Assembly: GCF_008807375.1 (NCBI RefSeq)
Contig: NZ_CP043311.1
Coordinates: forward strand, 4,878,001-4,942,000
DNA from: Pseudomonas lalkuanensis
Lineage (GTDB): Bacteria > Pseudomonadota > Gammaproteobacteria > Pseudomonadales > Pseudomonadaceae
Length of the DNA: 64,000 bases
Reading direction: 5' to 3'
Shown: positions 23,827 to 64,000 of the stretch, one piece after another
Numbering within the stretch: the stretch's first letter is position 1
How the letters are laid out: each line of letters opens with the position of its first letter
Position numbers and translations under genes: made by a program
Notes under the pieces: model-generated
The model's database searches: none
What the model saw: the letters and a program-made list of their open reading frames with translations, nothing else
What the model was told of the DNA's origin: nothing

Positions 23827-25116
23827 TCAAGAAGCGGGATTGGCGTTTCCCTTGAGGTCCACCTCGAAACGGCAACCCGTGGGCTGGGAGGCGCTCAGGC
23901 TGACGGTCCAGCCCTGGTTGTCGCAGATCCGCTGCACCAGCGAAAGGCCCAGACCCAGGCCGTCGCCGCGCTTGGCAGGCCCCCGGACGAAGGGGCGGAA
24001 CATCGCCTCGCGATCCTCCTCGGGGATGCCGACGCCGCTGTCCTCCACCACGAATCCGTCGTCCTTCAAGACCAGGCGGATGCTGCCGCTGTCGGTGTAG
24101 TGCAGGGCGTTGCGCAACAGGTTGCCCAGCACCGAGCGCAGGAAAGAAGCGTTATAGCGCCGCTCCTGGGGCTGCCCCGGCTGGTATTCGAAGCGCAGCC
24201 CCTTGTGTTCGATAGCGCCACGCCATTGGCTGGCGAGGTCATCGGCCACGCTGCTCAGGCTCGCCTGGGGCGCCACGCTGGCCTCATCGCGCTGGGAGCG
24301 CGCCAGCATCAGGAAGGTCTGCACCAGGTCGCGCATTTCCTCGGTGGCACGGGCGATGCGCTCCACCTGGTTGCGGCCCCGGGTATCGAGGCTGGGGTTC
24401 TCCGCCAACAGCTCGCAGGATGTGGCCAGCACCATCAGCGGCGTACGCAGCTCGTGGCTGACGTCACTGGTGAACAGGCGCTCGCGGTTCAGTACCTCGT
24501 GCAGCCGGCCCAGGGTGTCGTCGAACGCCTGGGCCAGTTGGCCCACCTCGTCGGAGGCGTAATCCGGCGCCAGCGGCGGCGCCATGCCCAGCAACTGATC
24601 GCGATGGCGGACCTGGCCGGCCAGGCGAACAACGGGCTCGATGACCTTGCGCGCCAGCAGCCAGCCCAGCAGCAGGGCCAGTACCACACTGATGCCGAAG
24701 CCGACCATCACCACGCGGTAGAGCACCTGTTCGCGGGCCTCGAAATCGCTCTGGTCCTGCAGCATCACATAGCGTCGGCCATCGATCTCGCGCACCAGCG
24801 CATGGTAGGAGTTCTCGCCCTCGAAGACTTCGTGGAACCCCAGCTTCAGACCGGCGAGGTCTTCTGGCAGGGCGTAGGGGCCACGTCCGTCGCTGCTGTA
24901 GAAACGGGTGTCGCTGTCCAGGCTGGGCGTCCGGCCCTGGGCGATGTTCTGGGTCAGGACCCGCGTGAGCTCGTTGTTCAGGTCGCGGGAGATCAGCTGC
25001 TCCTCGATTACATGCACCACCTCGATGATCCCCACCGCGAAGGTGCCGCCCACGAGCGCGGTCATCAGTACGAAGGCGATGAGAATCCGTCGAGCCAGGC
25101 TCTGCTTAAACTCCAT
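23827..25116 (-). CDS. colS: Sensor histidine kinase ColS
   Basis: 429 residues from ATG 25116. TM1 (about 9-31), a ~100-residue periplasmic domain, TM2 (about 132-155), HAMP, then a HisKA domain with phospho-acceptor H221 (DVSHELRTP) and an HATPase domain (NLLRNALHY; GDGLGLGLSLV). The periplasmic domain carries H95-E96-V-F-E99: an ExxE iron/zinc-binding motif like the one through which P. putida ColS senses excess Zn2+/Fe3+. It overlaps the colR stop by 11 bp, so kinase and regulator are co-translated. Confidence 0.92.
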   Translation of the reverse strand: MEFKQSLARRILIAFVLMTALVGGTFAVGIIEVVHVIEEQLISRDLNNELTRVLTQNIAQGRTPSLDSDTRFYSSDGRGPYALPEDLAGLKLGFHEVFEGENSYHALVREIDGRRYVMLQDQSDFEAREQVLYRVVMVGFGISVVLALLLGWLLARKVIEPVVRLAGQVRHRDQLLGMAPPLAPDYASDEVGQLAQAFDDTLGRLHEVLNRERLFTSDVSHELRTPLMVLATSCELLAENPSLDTRGRNQVERIARATEEMRDLVQTFLMLARSQRDEASVAPQASLSSVADDLASQWRGAIEHKGLRFEYQPGQPQERRYNASFLRSVLGNLLRNALHYTDSGSIRLVLKDDGFVVEDSGVGIPEEDREAMFRPFVRGPAKRGDGLGLGLSLVQRICDNQGWTVSLSASQPTGCRFEVDLKGNANPAS

Positions 25117-59622: not shown

Positions 59623-60081
59623 TCAGAGCAGATCGCGATCCAGCAACGGCCATTCCCGCTGCGCCTGCGGGTCGTCGGACAGCAGGCGAAAGCCGGCGAA
59701 TTCGAAGCCGGGCGCCACGTTGCAGCCCACCAGGGTATAGGCACCCAGGCAACGTGCGGCCTGCCAGGCGTGGGCGGGTACGGTGCGCTGGGGCAGGCTG
59801 CCCTCCGCCACCGGGCCGAGGAGTTCCCGGCGCACCTCGCCAGGCGATTCGGCGACCAGCAGTTCCAGCGGGTCGCCTTCGTAGAAGTGCCAGGCCTCGT
59901 CGGCATCTACCCGGTGCCAGCGGCTCACACCACCCTGCGGCAACAGGAAGAAGATGGACGACGACGCAGCGCGGCCACCCGGCAGATGGGTGGCCGATTC
60001 GAACACCCGGCGATAGAAGCCACCTTCAGGGTGCGGCTCCAGTTGCAGTTCGCGGATGAGGAATTCGGCGCGCGGGTGCAT
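59623..60081 (-). CDS. Cupin protein, DUF985 family
   Basis: 152 residues. Cupin_5/DUF985 pattern: N-terminal LQLEPHPEGGFYRR, then SSIFFLLPQGGVSRWHRVDA and the metal-site-like HFYEGDPLELL. Its start overlaps the flavodoxin stop (TGATG), so they form an operon. Proteins of this family bind small molecules; the function is unknown. The two-gene unit is divergent from the LOV photoreceptor gene. Confidence 0.83.
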   Translation of the reverse strand: MHPRAEFLIRELQLEPHPEGGFYRRVFESATHLPGGRAASSSIFFLLPQGGVSRWHRVDADEAWHFYEGDPLELLVAESPGEVRRELLGPVAEGSLPQRTVPAHAWQAARCLGAYTLVGCNVAPGFEFAGFRLLSDDPQAQREWPLLDRDLL

Positions 60082-60530
60082 CAGGCTTTCAGCGCCGCGA
60101 TGACGGCATTGAGCCAGGGCTCGGCATCCAGTTCAGGGGTAACGGTTTCGCTGGCGTCCAGGCGCTGCATCTCCACCACTTCGCGCAGGCCGAGCTCGGC
60201 ATAGAGCTCACGCATCAGCTCGCCGCCGCCGCAGAACACGTCGTAGCTGGAATCCCCCAGGGCGAGGATGGCACCCGAGCGGCCACGCCAGTTGGGCAGG
60301 CGGTCGCGCAGCTCGGAATACAGCGGCAGCAGGTTATCCGGCAACTCGCCCATTCCGGTGGTGGCCGTCACGGTGAGCAGCGCCTCGGGGTCGAAGGCGA
60401 TCAGGTCGTCCAGGCTCACCCGGGGCAGGTAGCTGGCGTCCAGGCCAGCGGCCTTGAGCAGCTTTTCCGCGTGACGGGCGACTTCTTCGGCGGTGCCGTA
60501 CACCGAGCCGGACAGGATGGCGACTTTCAT
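60081..60530 (-). CDS. Flavodoxin (MioC-like)
   Basis: 149 residues from ATG 60530. FMN phosphate-binding loop SGSVYGTAEEVA, isoalloxazine loops TATTGMGELPDN and LGDSSYDVFCGGGE. It is an electron carrier of the long-chain flavodoxin/MioC type. The start overlaps nothing upstream; 104 bp separates it from the divergent LOV gene. Its place beside a flavin-based photoreceptor may be coincidental or may link to flavin redox signalling. Confidence 0.85.
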   Translation of the reverse strand: MKVAILSGSVYGTAEEVARHAEKLLKAAGLDASYLPRVSLDDLIAFDPEALLTVTATTGMGELPDNLLPLYSELRDRLPNWRGRSGAILALGDSSYDVFCGGGELMRELYAELGLREVVEMQRLDASETVTPELDAEPWLNAVIAALKA

Positions 60531-60634: not shown

Positions 60635-61081
60635 ATGATCAACGCCAAGCTGCTGCAACTGGTAATAGACGCGTCCAACGACGGTATCGTGGTCGCCGAG
60701 CAAGAGGGTGAAGACAACATCCTGATCTACGTCAATGCCGCCTTCGAGCGCCTCACCGGCTACGCTCGCGATGAAATCCTCTACCAGGACTGCCGGTTCC
60801 TCCAGGGCAAGGACCGCAATCAGCTGGGCATCCCCGCCATCCGCCAGGCCATCCGCAATGGCCAGCCGTGCCGGCAGATCCTGCGCAACTACCGCAAGGA
60901 CGGCAGCGCCTTCTGGAACGAGCTGTCCATCACCCCGGTATTCAACGAGTCGGACCAGCTCACCTATTTCATCGGCATCCAGAAAGACGTTACCGAGCAG
61001 GTGGAAGCCCGCCAGCGGGTGCGCGAACTGGAAGAAGAAGTGGCTGGGCTCAAGGCAGAACTGGCGGAACTCAAGAGGTAG
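60635..61081 (+). CDS. Short LOV blue-light photoreceptor (PpSB1-LOV-like)
   Basis: 148 residues. The single LOV/PAS domain carries the photoactive cysteine C53 in YQDC53RFLQG, with conserved asparagines in the FMN pocket (YVNAAF; FWNELSITPV) and a C-terminal coiled-coil (about 120-148) for dimerisation. The N-terminus MINAKLLQLVIDASNDG is nearly identical to P. putida PpSB1-LOV. It has no output domain, so it signals by protein contact, in P. putida probably to LitR-type regulators. FMN-contact residue R61 is present, but position 66 is Ile, as in PpSB2-LOV. Lies next to the LitR gene, tail-to-tail. Confidence 0.93.
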   Translation: MINAKLLQLVIDASNDGIVVAEQEGEDNILIYVNAAFERLTGYARDEILYQDCRFLQGKDRNQLGIPAIRQAIRNGQPCRQILRNYRKDGSAFWNELSITPVFNESDQLTYFIGIQKDVTEQVEARQRVRELEEEVAGLKAELAELKR

Positions 61082-61160: not shown

Positions 61161-62108
61161 TCAGGTATCCAGATGCCCGGCCAGGAACTGCCGAAGGCGG
61201 CGCTGCATCAGTCGCCCCTCGCTGCCGAGGCAGGCCACGGGGGTGCCGTCCAGTTCCTCACTCATCAGATCGGCGGTTTCGCCGGCCAGTGCCATGGGGC
61301 AGTCCAGCCCCAGGGCCAGGCGGTTGAGCTGTTGGCCGAGGTCGTCGGCCGGCGGCTGGTTGGAGAACAGCACCAGCGCCTGGGGTTGCAGCTTGCCGCA
61401 CACCAGCGCCAGTTCCGCTAGTGGCTGACCCAGGCCGAGCACGTTCACCACCACCTCGCCGCTGCCCAGCAACAGGCCGGCCACCAGCAACTCCAGCTCG
61501 CGCCCCTGCCCCGGCAAGGGGGCCAGCAGCACCCGCTGCTGCTGGTTATTGCGCGACAGTTGCAGGCGCTGCAGGACGCGGGCGCGCAGGAAGCTGTCGA
61601 AGAACACCCATTCGCTGCCGCGACCGAACTCGTCCTGGCGCAACAGCAGCGACTGCCAGACCGGCATCAGCACATCGGCGAACGCCACGTGCAGTGGATA
61701 AGTGGAAAACACCTGGCCATAGACCCGCTCCAGCTCGGCCTCGTCCAGGGTGGAGACGGCGTTGCGCACCTGGGTTCGGCGCTCGTTCCATTCCCCCGAA
61801 GCCGCATCCTGGTGGATCGGTGTCACCGGCAGCCTGGCGGCATTGCTACGGGCCAGCAGCTTGCCCACCTTGCTCACCGAAACGCCGCGCTCGATCCAGG
61901 CGAGGATGCTGCGCACCGCCTCGACATCCGCCAGGGAATACAGGCGGTGGCCGCTTTCGGTACGGGTCGGCTGGATCAGTCCGTAACGCCGTTCCCAGGC
62001 TCGCAGGGTGACCGGATTGACCCCGGTCAGGCGCGAAACCTCCCGGATCGGGAAGAGTTCTTCCTGTTTCGGGGCGGCCGAGGCGATGGATGCACCGGAG
62101 TCGGTCAT
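61161..62108 (-). CDS. Class II LitR-type MerR regulator (light response)
   Basis: 315 residues from ATG 62108. MerR helix-turn-helix (about 17-80, IREVSRLTGVNPVTLRAWERR), then a CarH/LitR-like four-helix and B12-binding-fold domain. The bundle region has W151...E166-W167, where B12-dependent relatives have E-H, and the lower cobalamin ligand His (PGxxH motif) is replaced by R203 in LPGQGRELELL. It should therefore not bind B12. P. putida class II LitR proteins PplR1-3 have this feature and depend on LOV proteins for light response. It is next to such a LOV gene here. Confidence 0.88.
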   Translation of the reverse strand: MTDSGASIASAAPKQEELFPIREVSRLTGVNPVTLRAWERRYGLIQPTRTESGHRLYSLADVEAVRSILAWIERGVSVSKVGKLLARSNAARLPVTPIHQDAASGEWNERRTQVRNAVSTLDEAELERVYGQVFSTYPLHVAFADVLMPVWQSLLLRQDEFGRGSEWVFFDSFLRARVLQRLQLSRNNQQQRVLLAPLPGQGRELELLVAGLLLGSGEVVVNVLGLGQPLAELALVCGKLQPQALVLFSNQPPADDLGQQLNRLALGLDCPMALAGETADLMSEELDGTPVACLGSEGRLMQRRLRQFLAGHLDT

Positions 62109-62343: not shown

Positions 62344-62913
62344 ATGTCTGCCGATCCCGTCACCCTGATGGTGGCCCGCCGCGTCGCCCGCGAGCGCTAC
62401 CACGACTTCATGGCCTGGCTGCGCGAAGGCGAGCAACTGGCCGCCGACTTCCCCGGATACCTCGGCTCTGGCGTGCTGGCACCGCCTCCGGATGACGACG
62501 AGTTCCAGATGATCTTCCGTTTCACCGACGAGCCGACCCTGGCCGCCTGGGAGCACTCCGCTTCGCGCCGCGCCTGGCTGGAGCGTGGCGCCGGACTGTT
62601 CGAGCAGCCCCATGAGCATCGCGCCCTCGGCCTGGATGCCTGGTTCGGCAAGGCCGAGCAGCGGCCGCCGCGCTGGAAGCAGAGCGTGGCCATCTGGCTG
62701 GCCTTCTTTCCCGTGTCCCTGGCCTTCAACCTGCTGTTCGGCGGCTGGCTGGGCGACCTGCCGCTGGCCCTGCGGATATTCCTCAGCACCCTGGCGCTGA
62801 CGCCGCTGATGACTTATTGGTTCATCCCGCTTTCCACTCGCCTGCTGGCACCATGGCTGCAGTCGAGCCGCCCCGCCCCGGTCCGCGGCGCAACGGCGGT
62901 GCAACCCCGCTGA
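62344..62913 (+). CDS. ABM-domain membrane protein
   Basis: 189 residues from ATG 62344, preceded by AAGGAG. An antibiotic-biosynthesis monooxygenase-like (dimeric alpha/beta) domain (about 6-100) is followed by two transmembrane helices (about 115-136 and 142-164). The family is a cofactor-free monooxygenase or haem-binding fold; its fusion to membrane helices is common in Pseudomonas proteins of unknown function. It is divergent from the LitR gene and upstream of folM-folE. Relation to light control is unknown. Confidence 0.78.
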   Translation: MSADPVTLMVARRVARERYHDFMAWLREGEQLAADFPGYLGSGVLAPPPDDDEFQMIFRFTDEPTLAAWEHSASRRAWLERGAGLFEQPHEHRALGLDAWFGKAEQRPPRWKQSVAIWLAFFPVSLAFNLLFGGWLGDLPLALRIFLSTLALTPLMTYWFIPLSTRLLAPWLQSSRPAPVRGATAVQPR

Positions 62914-62930
62914 GGCCGGCCCCGGCAATT

Positions 62931-62954
62931 TGTACAAGCCCCACCCCTGGTATA
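62931..62954 (+). promoter_or_regulatory. Candidate LitR/PplR operator in the folM-folE promoter
   Basis: TGTACA (62931-62936), 12 bp, GGTATA (62949-62954). The direct repeat described for P. putida PplR1 is T(G/A)TACA-N12-TGTA(C/T)A, so this has one mismatch. The second half overlaps a -10 (TATAAC, 62951-62956), so binding would block RNA polymerase. It lies 73 bp before folM. Confidence 0.75.
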
Positions 62955-63026
62955 ACTTGGTGCAGATCAGGCCGTCTGCACCACCTTCCGGCCATCGCCC
63001 TCAGTACCTCCTGCTTCGAGGCGTCA

Positions 63027-63734
63027 ATGAGCCGACCCGCTCCCATCCTCATCACCGGCGCCAGCCAGCGCGTCGGCCTCTACTGTGCCGAACGTCTGCT
63101 GGACGAAGGCCAGCCGGTGATCATCAGCTACCGCACCGAACGCGACGGCGTGAGGCACCTGCGCGAACGCGGCGCCACGGCGCTCGCTGCGGACTTTTCC
63201 AGCGAAGCCGGCATCCTCGCCTTCATCGATGAGCTCAAGGGCTGCACCGACAGCCTGCGCGCCATCGTCCACAATGCGTCGGACTGGCTGACGGAAACGC
63301 CCGGCCACGAGGCCGACGCCTTCCAGCGCATGTTCAGCGTGCACATGCTGGCGCCCTACCTGATCAACCTGCATTGCGAGGAACTGCTGCGCCGCAGCAG
63401 CCCCGCGGACATCATCCACCTGAGCGACGATGTGGCGCGCCGGGGCAGCGAGAAGCGCATCGCCTACTGCGCCAGCAAGGCCGGGCTGGACAACCTCACA
63501 CTGTCCTTCGCCGCCCGCTTCGCGCCAGACATCAAGGTCAACGGCATCGCCCCGGCACTGGTGATGTTCAATGCCGAAGACGATGACGCCTACCGCAAGA
63601 AGACCCTGGCCAAGTCGGCACTGGGCATCGAGCCCGGTCCGCAGGTGGTCTACCAGGCCCTGCGCTACCTCCTGGACAATTCCTACGTCACCGGAACGAC
63701 CCTGACACTCAACGGCGGCCGCCACCTCAAGTAG
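63027..63734 (+). CDS. folM: Dihydromonapterin reductase FolM (SDR family)
   Basis: 235 residues from ATG 63027. The pteridine-reductase-type motif TGASQRVG (about 10-17), the catalytic Tyr-x-x-x-Lys in AYCASKAG and C-terminal TLTLNGG are FolM-like. It reduces dihydromonapterin to tetrahydromonapterin, which is used by phenylalanine hydroxylase in pseudomonads. Folate-branch enzyme folE follows 19 bp later, so the two are co-transcribed. The upstream promoter has a LitR-type operator. Confidence 0.88.
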
Positions 63735-63753: not shown

Positions 63754-64000
63754 CATGAGCGATGAACTGGACCTGTATTACCGGGAAATCCTGCGGGGGC
63801 TGGGGGAAGACCCAGACCGAGAAGGTCTGCGCGAAACCCCCAAGCGCGCCGCCAAGGCCATGCGCTACCTGTGCCACGGCTACGAGCAGAACCTGGACGA
63901 GCTCGTCAACGGCGCCCTCTTCGCCTCGGACAACGACGAGATGGTGACCGTGAAGGACATCGAGCTCTATTCCCTCTGCGAACACCATCTCCTGCCCTTC
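63754..64000 (+). CDS. folE: GTP cyclohydrolase I, 5' part only (cut by window end)
   Basis: 82 residues visible. The start [20 protein letters not shown] and the zinc-site motif C75-E-H-H78 with LLPF identify GTP cyclohydrolase I, which converts GTP to dihydroneopterin triphosphate, the first step to folate and monapterin. The C-terminal half, with the second zinc cysteine, lies beyond the window. It follows folM in one operon. P. putida has a light-induced folE, which this probably parallels. Confidence 0.93.

Follow-up and report, generated by a model that had tools for sequence, protein, structure and literature searches.

The 64,000-nucleotide stretch of Pseudomonas lalkuanensis DNA that we analysed (contig NZ_CP043311.1, positions 4,878,001 to 4,942,000; hereafter, the window) ends in a run of genes in the order flavodoxin (minus strand), short LOV photoreceptor (plus), LitR-like MerR regulator (minus), ABM-domain protein (plus), folM (plus) and folE (plus). 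These genes, and the sequence elements in front of folM, are as follows.

60081..60530, minus strand: flavodoxin (PRK05723, by profile match), a neighbour not known as part of the switch
60635..61081, plus strand: short LOV photoreceptor of 148 amino acids with Cys53 (profile matches to PAS families only)
61161..62108, minus strand: LitR/CarH-like MerR regulator of 315 amino acids (CarH profile, MerR domains)
62344..62913, plus strand: ABM-domain protein (PF03992, by Pfam domain) between litR and folM
62931..62954, plus strand: nominal LitR operator TGTACA-N12-GGTATA (consensus match; the same string is published for P. mendocina folM)
62931..62936, plus strand: left LitR box TGTACA, inside TTGTACA (by sequence; commoner with litR linkage)
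62948..62956, plus strand: extended -10 TGGTATAAC (by sequence; TGnTATA is kept in some promoters without TGTACA)
63027..63734, plus strand: folM, dihydromonapterin reductase (NF005066, 360.8 bits against a cut-off of 249)
63755..64000 and past the window end, plus strand: folE, GTP cyclohydrolase I (domain at contig 4941779-4942300)

Downstream of folE, beyond the window end, lies a gene of the FolB family (L199) that could be folX. The short LOV protein consists of a LOV/PAS core with no effector domain, and its photoactive cysteine, Cys53, lies in YQDCRFLQ. The adjacent LitR-like protein reaches 85.6 bits against the CarH profile, which is below the cut-off of 400. A Pfam search at an E-value of 0.001 found MerR domains and no B12-binding domain in this protein, and the four-helix-bundle domain B12-binding_2 was not found in it at that threshold either. 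Having a MerR helix-turn-helix (HTH) and no B12-binding domain proper, it looks like a class II LitR, and the genome encodes it together with the short LOV adjacent to folM. A second LitR-like protein is encoded at the phrB locus (contig 5009566-5010375), and in this paralogue B12-binding_2 is found with an E-value of 2e-4, just below the cut-off. The two paralogues are 41% identical overall; in the HTH region they agree at 42 of 60 positions, and the stretch TGVNPVTLRAWERRY is the same in both. The C-terminal half of the ABM-domain protein looks membrane-like from its sequence. The source genome also has two FolE genes and three photolyase-type genes. The earlier note's suggestion that the pteridines might provide photolyase-type enzymes with an antenna or cofactor found no support in our analysis. 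According to the accessible part of PMC13259868, the P. aeruginosa FolM homologue is most active on dihydrofolate.

The string at 62931-62954 reads TGTACA-AGCCCCACCCCT-GGTATA, which is one mismatch from the consensus T(G/A)TACA-N12-TGTA(C/T)A, and it lies 96 nt from the folM ATG (63027). It shares 11 of the 12 defined letters and the spacing with the PplR1 operator of P. putida KT2440 (consensus via PMC9758184, as far as given there), but its right box begins with GG rather than TG, and an extended -10 stands in that place. The nominal right half-site GGTATA (62949-62954) overlaps TATAAC (62951-62956) and falls within TGGTATAAC. An earlier note, made from the sequence alone, had described this string, its single mismatch from the PplR1 repeat and the overlap of its second half with TATAAC, and all of these are borne out. 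A consensus scan of 62800-63100 called no standard -35/-10 sigma-70 promoter. TTGTAC (62930-62935) occupies the expected -35 place, with a spacer of 15 nt, and TGG directly precedes TATAAC, as in sigma-70 promoters that combine an extended -10 with a weak -35. The operator overlaps both the -35 and the -10 of this promoter, which is predicted from sequence only; transcription from it would start at about 62962-62964.

With up to two mismatches allowed, the operator consensus has six matches in the window, exceeding all of 100 shuffles (mean 0.76, largest 3), and the folM site is the sole match with fewer than two. The claim that the 60.5-64 kb segment contains no second copy held even when two mismatches were allowed. 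The five other matches in the window, each with two mismatches, start at 24897, 32869, 35422, 36870 and 50076. In the whole genome, the consensus with at most one mismatch occurs at 12 places, as compared with three for a reversed-pattern control. One mismatch alone is therefore weak evidence, and position and conservation have to decide. Thus, a one-mismatch genome scan was dropped as proof of a regulon. The 12 places comprise the folM site, three exact sites and eight others. One of the eight (L015) has GTATAC dyads between a monooxygenase-like gene and a divergent regulator-like gene (gene labels by our own reading) and looks like another regulator's site. Two of the others (L014 and L016) each overlap a small ORF, and the rest are L017 and the matches at 1823215, 2047542, 2742853 and 4155617. 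We also searched the 18 genomes of the genus for the exact composite TGTACA-N11-TGnTATAA. A single copy was found in each of 12 genomes, every one just upstream of folM by coordinate comparison, and the control gave none in all 18. When one mismatch was allowed, the source genome had one copy versus two for the control, so this loose form is not above control.

The same promoter has been studied in another species. The accessible part of PMC9758184 describes, for P. mendocina NBRC 14162, the same boxes (5'-TGTACA-N12-GGTATA-3') 95 bp upstream of folM, a linked litR and short LOV, and a folM-folE-folX operon, and its authors read the string as a two-box LitR operator. The regulator PmlR2 gel-shifts the P. 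mendocina folM promoter, with a complex less stable than that with P6650, and lit PmSB-LOV inhibits both the binding and the repression by PmlR2 at P6650 (PMC9758184). Light induction in P. mendocina is reported there as 2.4-2.5-fold for folM, 1.6-3.3-fold for folE, 27-33-fold for phrB and 25-33-fold for ufaM. In P. putida KT2440, folE2 is listed among the PplR/LOV-dependent light-induced genes in the accessible part of a review (PMC8508746). Going by what PMC9758184 describes, the folM site here is the orthologue of the published P. mendocina site and is confirmed rather than new. Induction and gel shift were measured in P. mendocina, whereas sequence, synteny and conservation were analysed here. 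Our addition is conservation evidence that the second box looks to be kept mainly as an extended -10. From its LitR-type operator at the folM-folE promoter, the earlier note had predicted light-induced synthesis of pteridines (monapterin/folate). By analogy, the P. mendocina string, gel shift and induction speak for light-induced folM-folE transcription under LitR, as do the light-induced folE2 of KT2440, the Cys53 of the adjacent LOV protein and the match, below cut-off, of the adjacent MerR protein to the CarH profile.

The synteny LOV-LitR-ABM-folM-folE is found here and in relatives. We compared folM upstream regions in a named set of 26 loci, 22 with LOV and LitR and four without, and in a family draw of 120 of the 147 non-self genomes. 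The draw was made roughly by FolM match order and overlaps the named set in part; it excludes the genera g3 and g8 and includes only four of the 13 genomes of g6. In the draw, a genome counts as having litR in the locus when tblastn at E 1e-5 finds it within the retrieved sequence, which reaches about 6 kb upstream, and as having a short LOV when the match has an E of at most 1e-50 (97 genomes). Five stretches (L101, L115, L160, L162 and L186) end at a contig edge, where litR could be missed; in L160, the sequence before folM is no longer than 183 nt. In the named set, a script found TGTACA-N12-GGTATA upstream of folM in 17 of the 26 loci, and three more (L024, L025 and L027) have an N13 gap when read by eye. 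The string with either gap is present in 20 of the 22 loci with LOV and LitR, the exceptions being L029 and L041, and in none of the four without.

In the family draw, the 300 nt before folM contain TGTACA in 40 of the 52 genomes that have litR in the locus, as compared with 15 of the 68 that do not (Fisher p 1.7e-9, ignoring relatedness). TGTACA was found at this distance in 11 of 34 genomes with a short LOV elsewhere, in four of 22 with a LitR-like protein elsewhere and no short LOV, and in none of the 12 having neither. When the distance to TATA is included (TGTACA-N14/15-TATA), 32 of the 52 litR-locus genomes have the pattern, versus 13 of the other 68 (Fisher p 3e-6, ignoring relatedness). 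A first-order Markov simulation of the upstream regions gave an expectation of 0.00 for TGTACA-N13..16-TATA, as compared with 32 observed among the 52 litR-locus genomes. Four genomes of the source genus have a TGTACA-TATA gap one base longer, and eight further litR-locus genomes have TGTACA, but not at the folM-site spacing from TATA. In 12 of the 52 litR-locus genomes, TGTACA is missing within 400 nt: ten of g14, plus G127 and G028, which belong to the same genus as the source. Because of these 12, we discarded the notion that a linked litR is always accompanied by the site.

In the ten g14 loci (L099, L101-L103, L108, L109, L111, L113, L117 and L119), LitR and LOV adjoin folM, and TGnTATA remains in all ten. 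By sequence, the folM operator of g14 looks lost or replaced. Three loci of g17 (L121, L123 and L157) and one of g2 (L150), in genomes with a LitR-like protein elsewhere and no short LOV, nevertheless have TGTACA upstream of folM.

We then investigated the right box. Among 45 promoters with TGTACA-N14/15-TATA, TGn precedes TATA in 37, two of which (from g5) are of a different look, and TGTATA, the perfect LitR box, occurs in none. Of the eight lacking TG, six belong to g18. Alignment of 41 promoters shows, where a LitR box would have T, G in 35, A in six and T in none, the TATA itself being imposed by the search pattern. The left box and the spacing at folM fit the LitR operator consensus, but the right box differs from it, and this difference is conserved across folM promoters. 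In 65 folM promoters without TGTACA, TGnTATA[AG] is found in 27 (11 litR-linked and 16 not), and 22 of these 27 read TGGTATAG. A set of 53 promoters lacks both TGTACA within 300 nt and a litR in the locus; TGnTATA[AG] is present in 16 of them (14 from g9 and two from g16) and absent from 37, and 14 of the 53 have TGGTGTAAG. Because TGnTATA is retained without TGTACA or a linked litR, GGTATA looks to be conserved as an extended -10, although this element is not universal among folM promoters. In the LitR-type operator of the earlier note, GGTATA appears to be something other than just a decayed LitR box.

We consider it highly probable that 62931-62954 is a LitR/LOV light-controlled promoter of a folM-folE-(folX/folB) operon and that it relies on the extended -10. 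The neighbouring class II LitR would occupy TGTACA in the dark, covering the place of the -35 and blocking RNA polymerase, and the LitR paralogue of the phrB locus may share in this repression. The short LOV protein encoded nearby would bind LitR under blue light and remove it from the DNA. With a -35 as poor as TTGTAC at 15 nt, the promoter would depend on TGGTATAAC, which would also be what appears as a second LitR box with one mismatch. This element may hold up basal expression, so that induction would be only few-fold; in other words, the extended -10 is presumably the cause of leakiness. By analogy, we infer that the promoter works in the source species as it does in P. mendocina.

Alternatively, the string might be a true two-box LitR operator, the interpretation given in the earlier note and, for P. 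mendocina, in PMC9758184, with GGTATA as a working degenerate half-site overlapping the -10 and LitR contacting both boxes. This reading is compatible with the light-switch model and differs from it on the right box only. In its favour, both the published consensus and the three exact genome sites have an N12 gap too, and the distance from the left box to TATA is N14 in 41 of the 45 promoters. However, promoter geometry explains a fixed gap equally well, and gaps one base longer exist. Since the first T of the half-site is never kept in the aligned promoters and GGTATA persists where both TGTACA and a linked litR are missing, we regard contact of LitR with both boxes as rather unlikely, though a serious candidate. 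It is more doubtful that the folM site is served mainly by the LitR paralogue of the phrB locus. The similarity of the two HTH regions, with TGVNPVTLRAWERRY unchanged, would allow it, and the four genomes of g17 and g2 keep TGTACA before folM with a LitR-like protein only elsewhere and no short LOV; yet the site associates with the adjacent litR. A plain constitutive extended -10 promoter, in which TGTACA is there by chance or serves some other regulator, is very improbable. TGnTATA in nine of ten g9 genomes without a short LOV and the 12 litR-locus genomes without TGTACA are what such a promoter would lead one to expect, but TGTACA-N13..16-TATA is far above its simulated expectation, TGTACA tracks litR linkage, and the homologous P. 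mendocina promoter is light-induced and bound by PmlR2 in the experiments described in PMC9758184.

Within the light-controlled promoter that we favour, the two elements compete for one base: the extended -10 needs G at 62949 and the LitR box needs T, so they are mutually exclusive. We tentatively propose, with slightly more doubt than belief, that the second LitR box was given up for the extended -10 at folM, and that one base here sets a 'dimmer' versus an 'on-off' light switch. If true, the base at 62949 would lie behind the roughly 2.5-fold induction of folM versus the roughly 30-fold induction of phrB and ufaM (P. mendocina values, as given in PMC9758184), and this letter conflict could explain why folM induction is weak. 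It would also account, in a way that can be tested, for the difference between the weak light response of folM and the strong response of DNA-repair genes that the same regulators control. More broadly, the prediction that a blue-light switch reaches the core pterin/folate supply is extended to another Pseudomonas lineage. The conservation pattern is also a caution that LitR half-sites lying on -10 elements are not callable by mismatch count alone.

The other LitR-type sites of the genome offer a comparison. Of the three exact N12 sites, one precedes an FAD oxidoreductase gene and two, 51 bp apart, precede a run of desulfidase-DUF1722 (RudS type), litR and phrB genes. These sites (L013) share the consensus of the folM site and have perfect right boxes. 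The RudS-side site, TATACA-N12-TGTATA, also overlaps a TATAAC -10, as at folM, but has no TGn before this -10: it reads TATACA-N12-TGTATAAC, with a LitR box where folM has the extended -10. A variable-gap search revealed two more sites, TGTACA-N11-TGTACA, which an exact-N12-only search misses; the control for the N8-16 pattern gave none. They lie in L203 (1501-1523) and L204, at contig 3725190-3725212 and 3733346-3733368, with a gap one base below N12. One of these N11 sites precedes a small ORF followed by SDR, FAD oxidoreductase, DUF1365 and CMAS (ufaM-like) genes, and the other precedes Chalcone_3, SDR and cryB-like genes. At the domain level only, the Pfam domains in the runs behind the perfect N11/N12 operators match the kinds of light-induced genes described in the accessible part of PMC9758184.

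Some folM upstream regions contain additional boxes of a kind that the window lacks. In nine loci of the named set (L028, L030-L036 and L043), which we take to be the P. mendocina/oleovorans group, the consensus is matched once more, with at most one mismatch, about 130 bp farther upstream. In 20 of the 120 folM upstream regions of the family draw (L077, L085-L090, L092-L094, L097, L098, L100, L104, L110, L112, L128, L129, L166 and L180), an extra TGTACA lies 95-151 bp upstream of the folM-proximal one. Judging by its sequence, this extra TGTACA is possibly a second operator.
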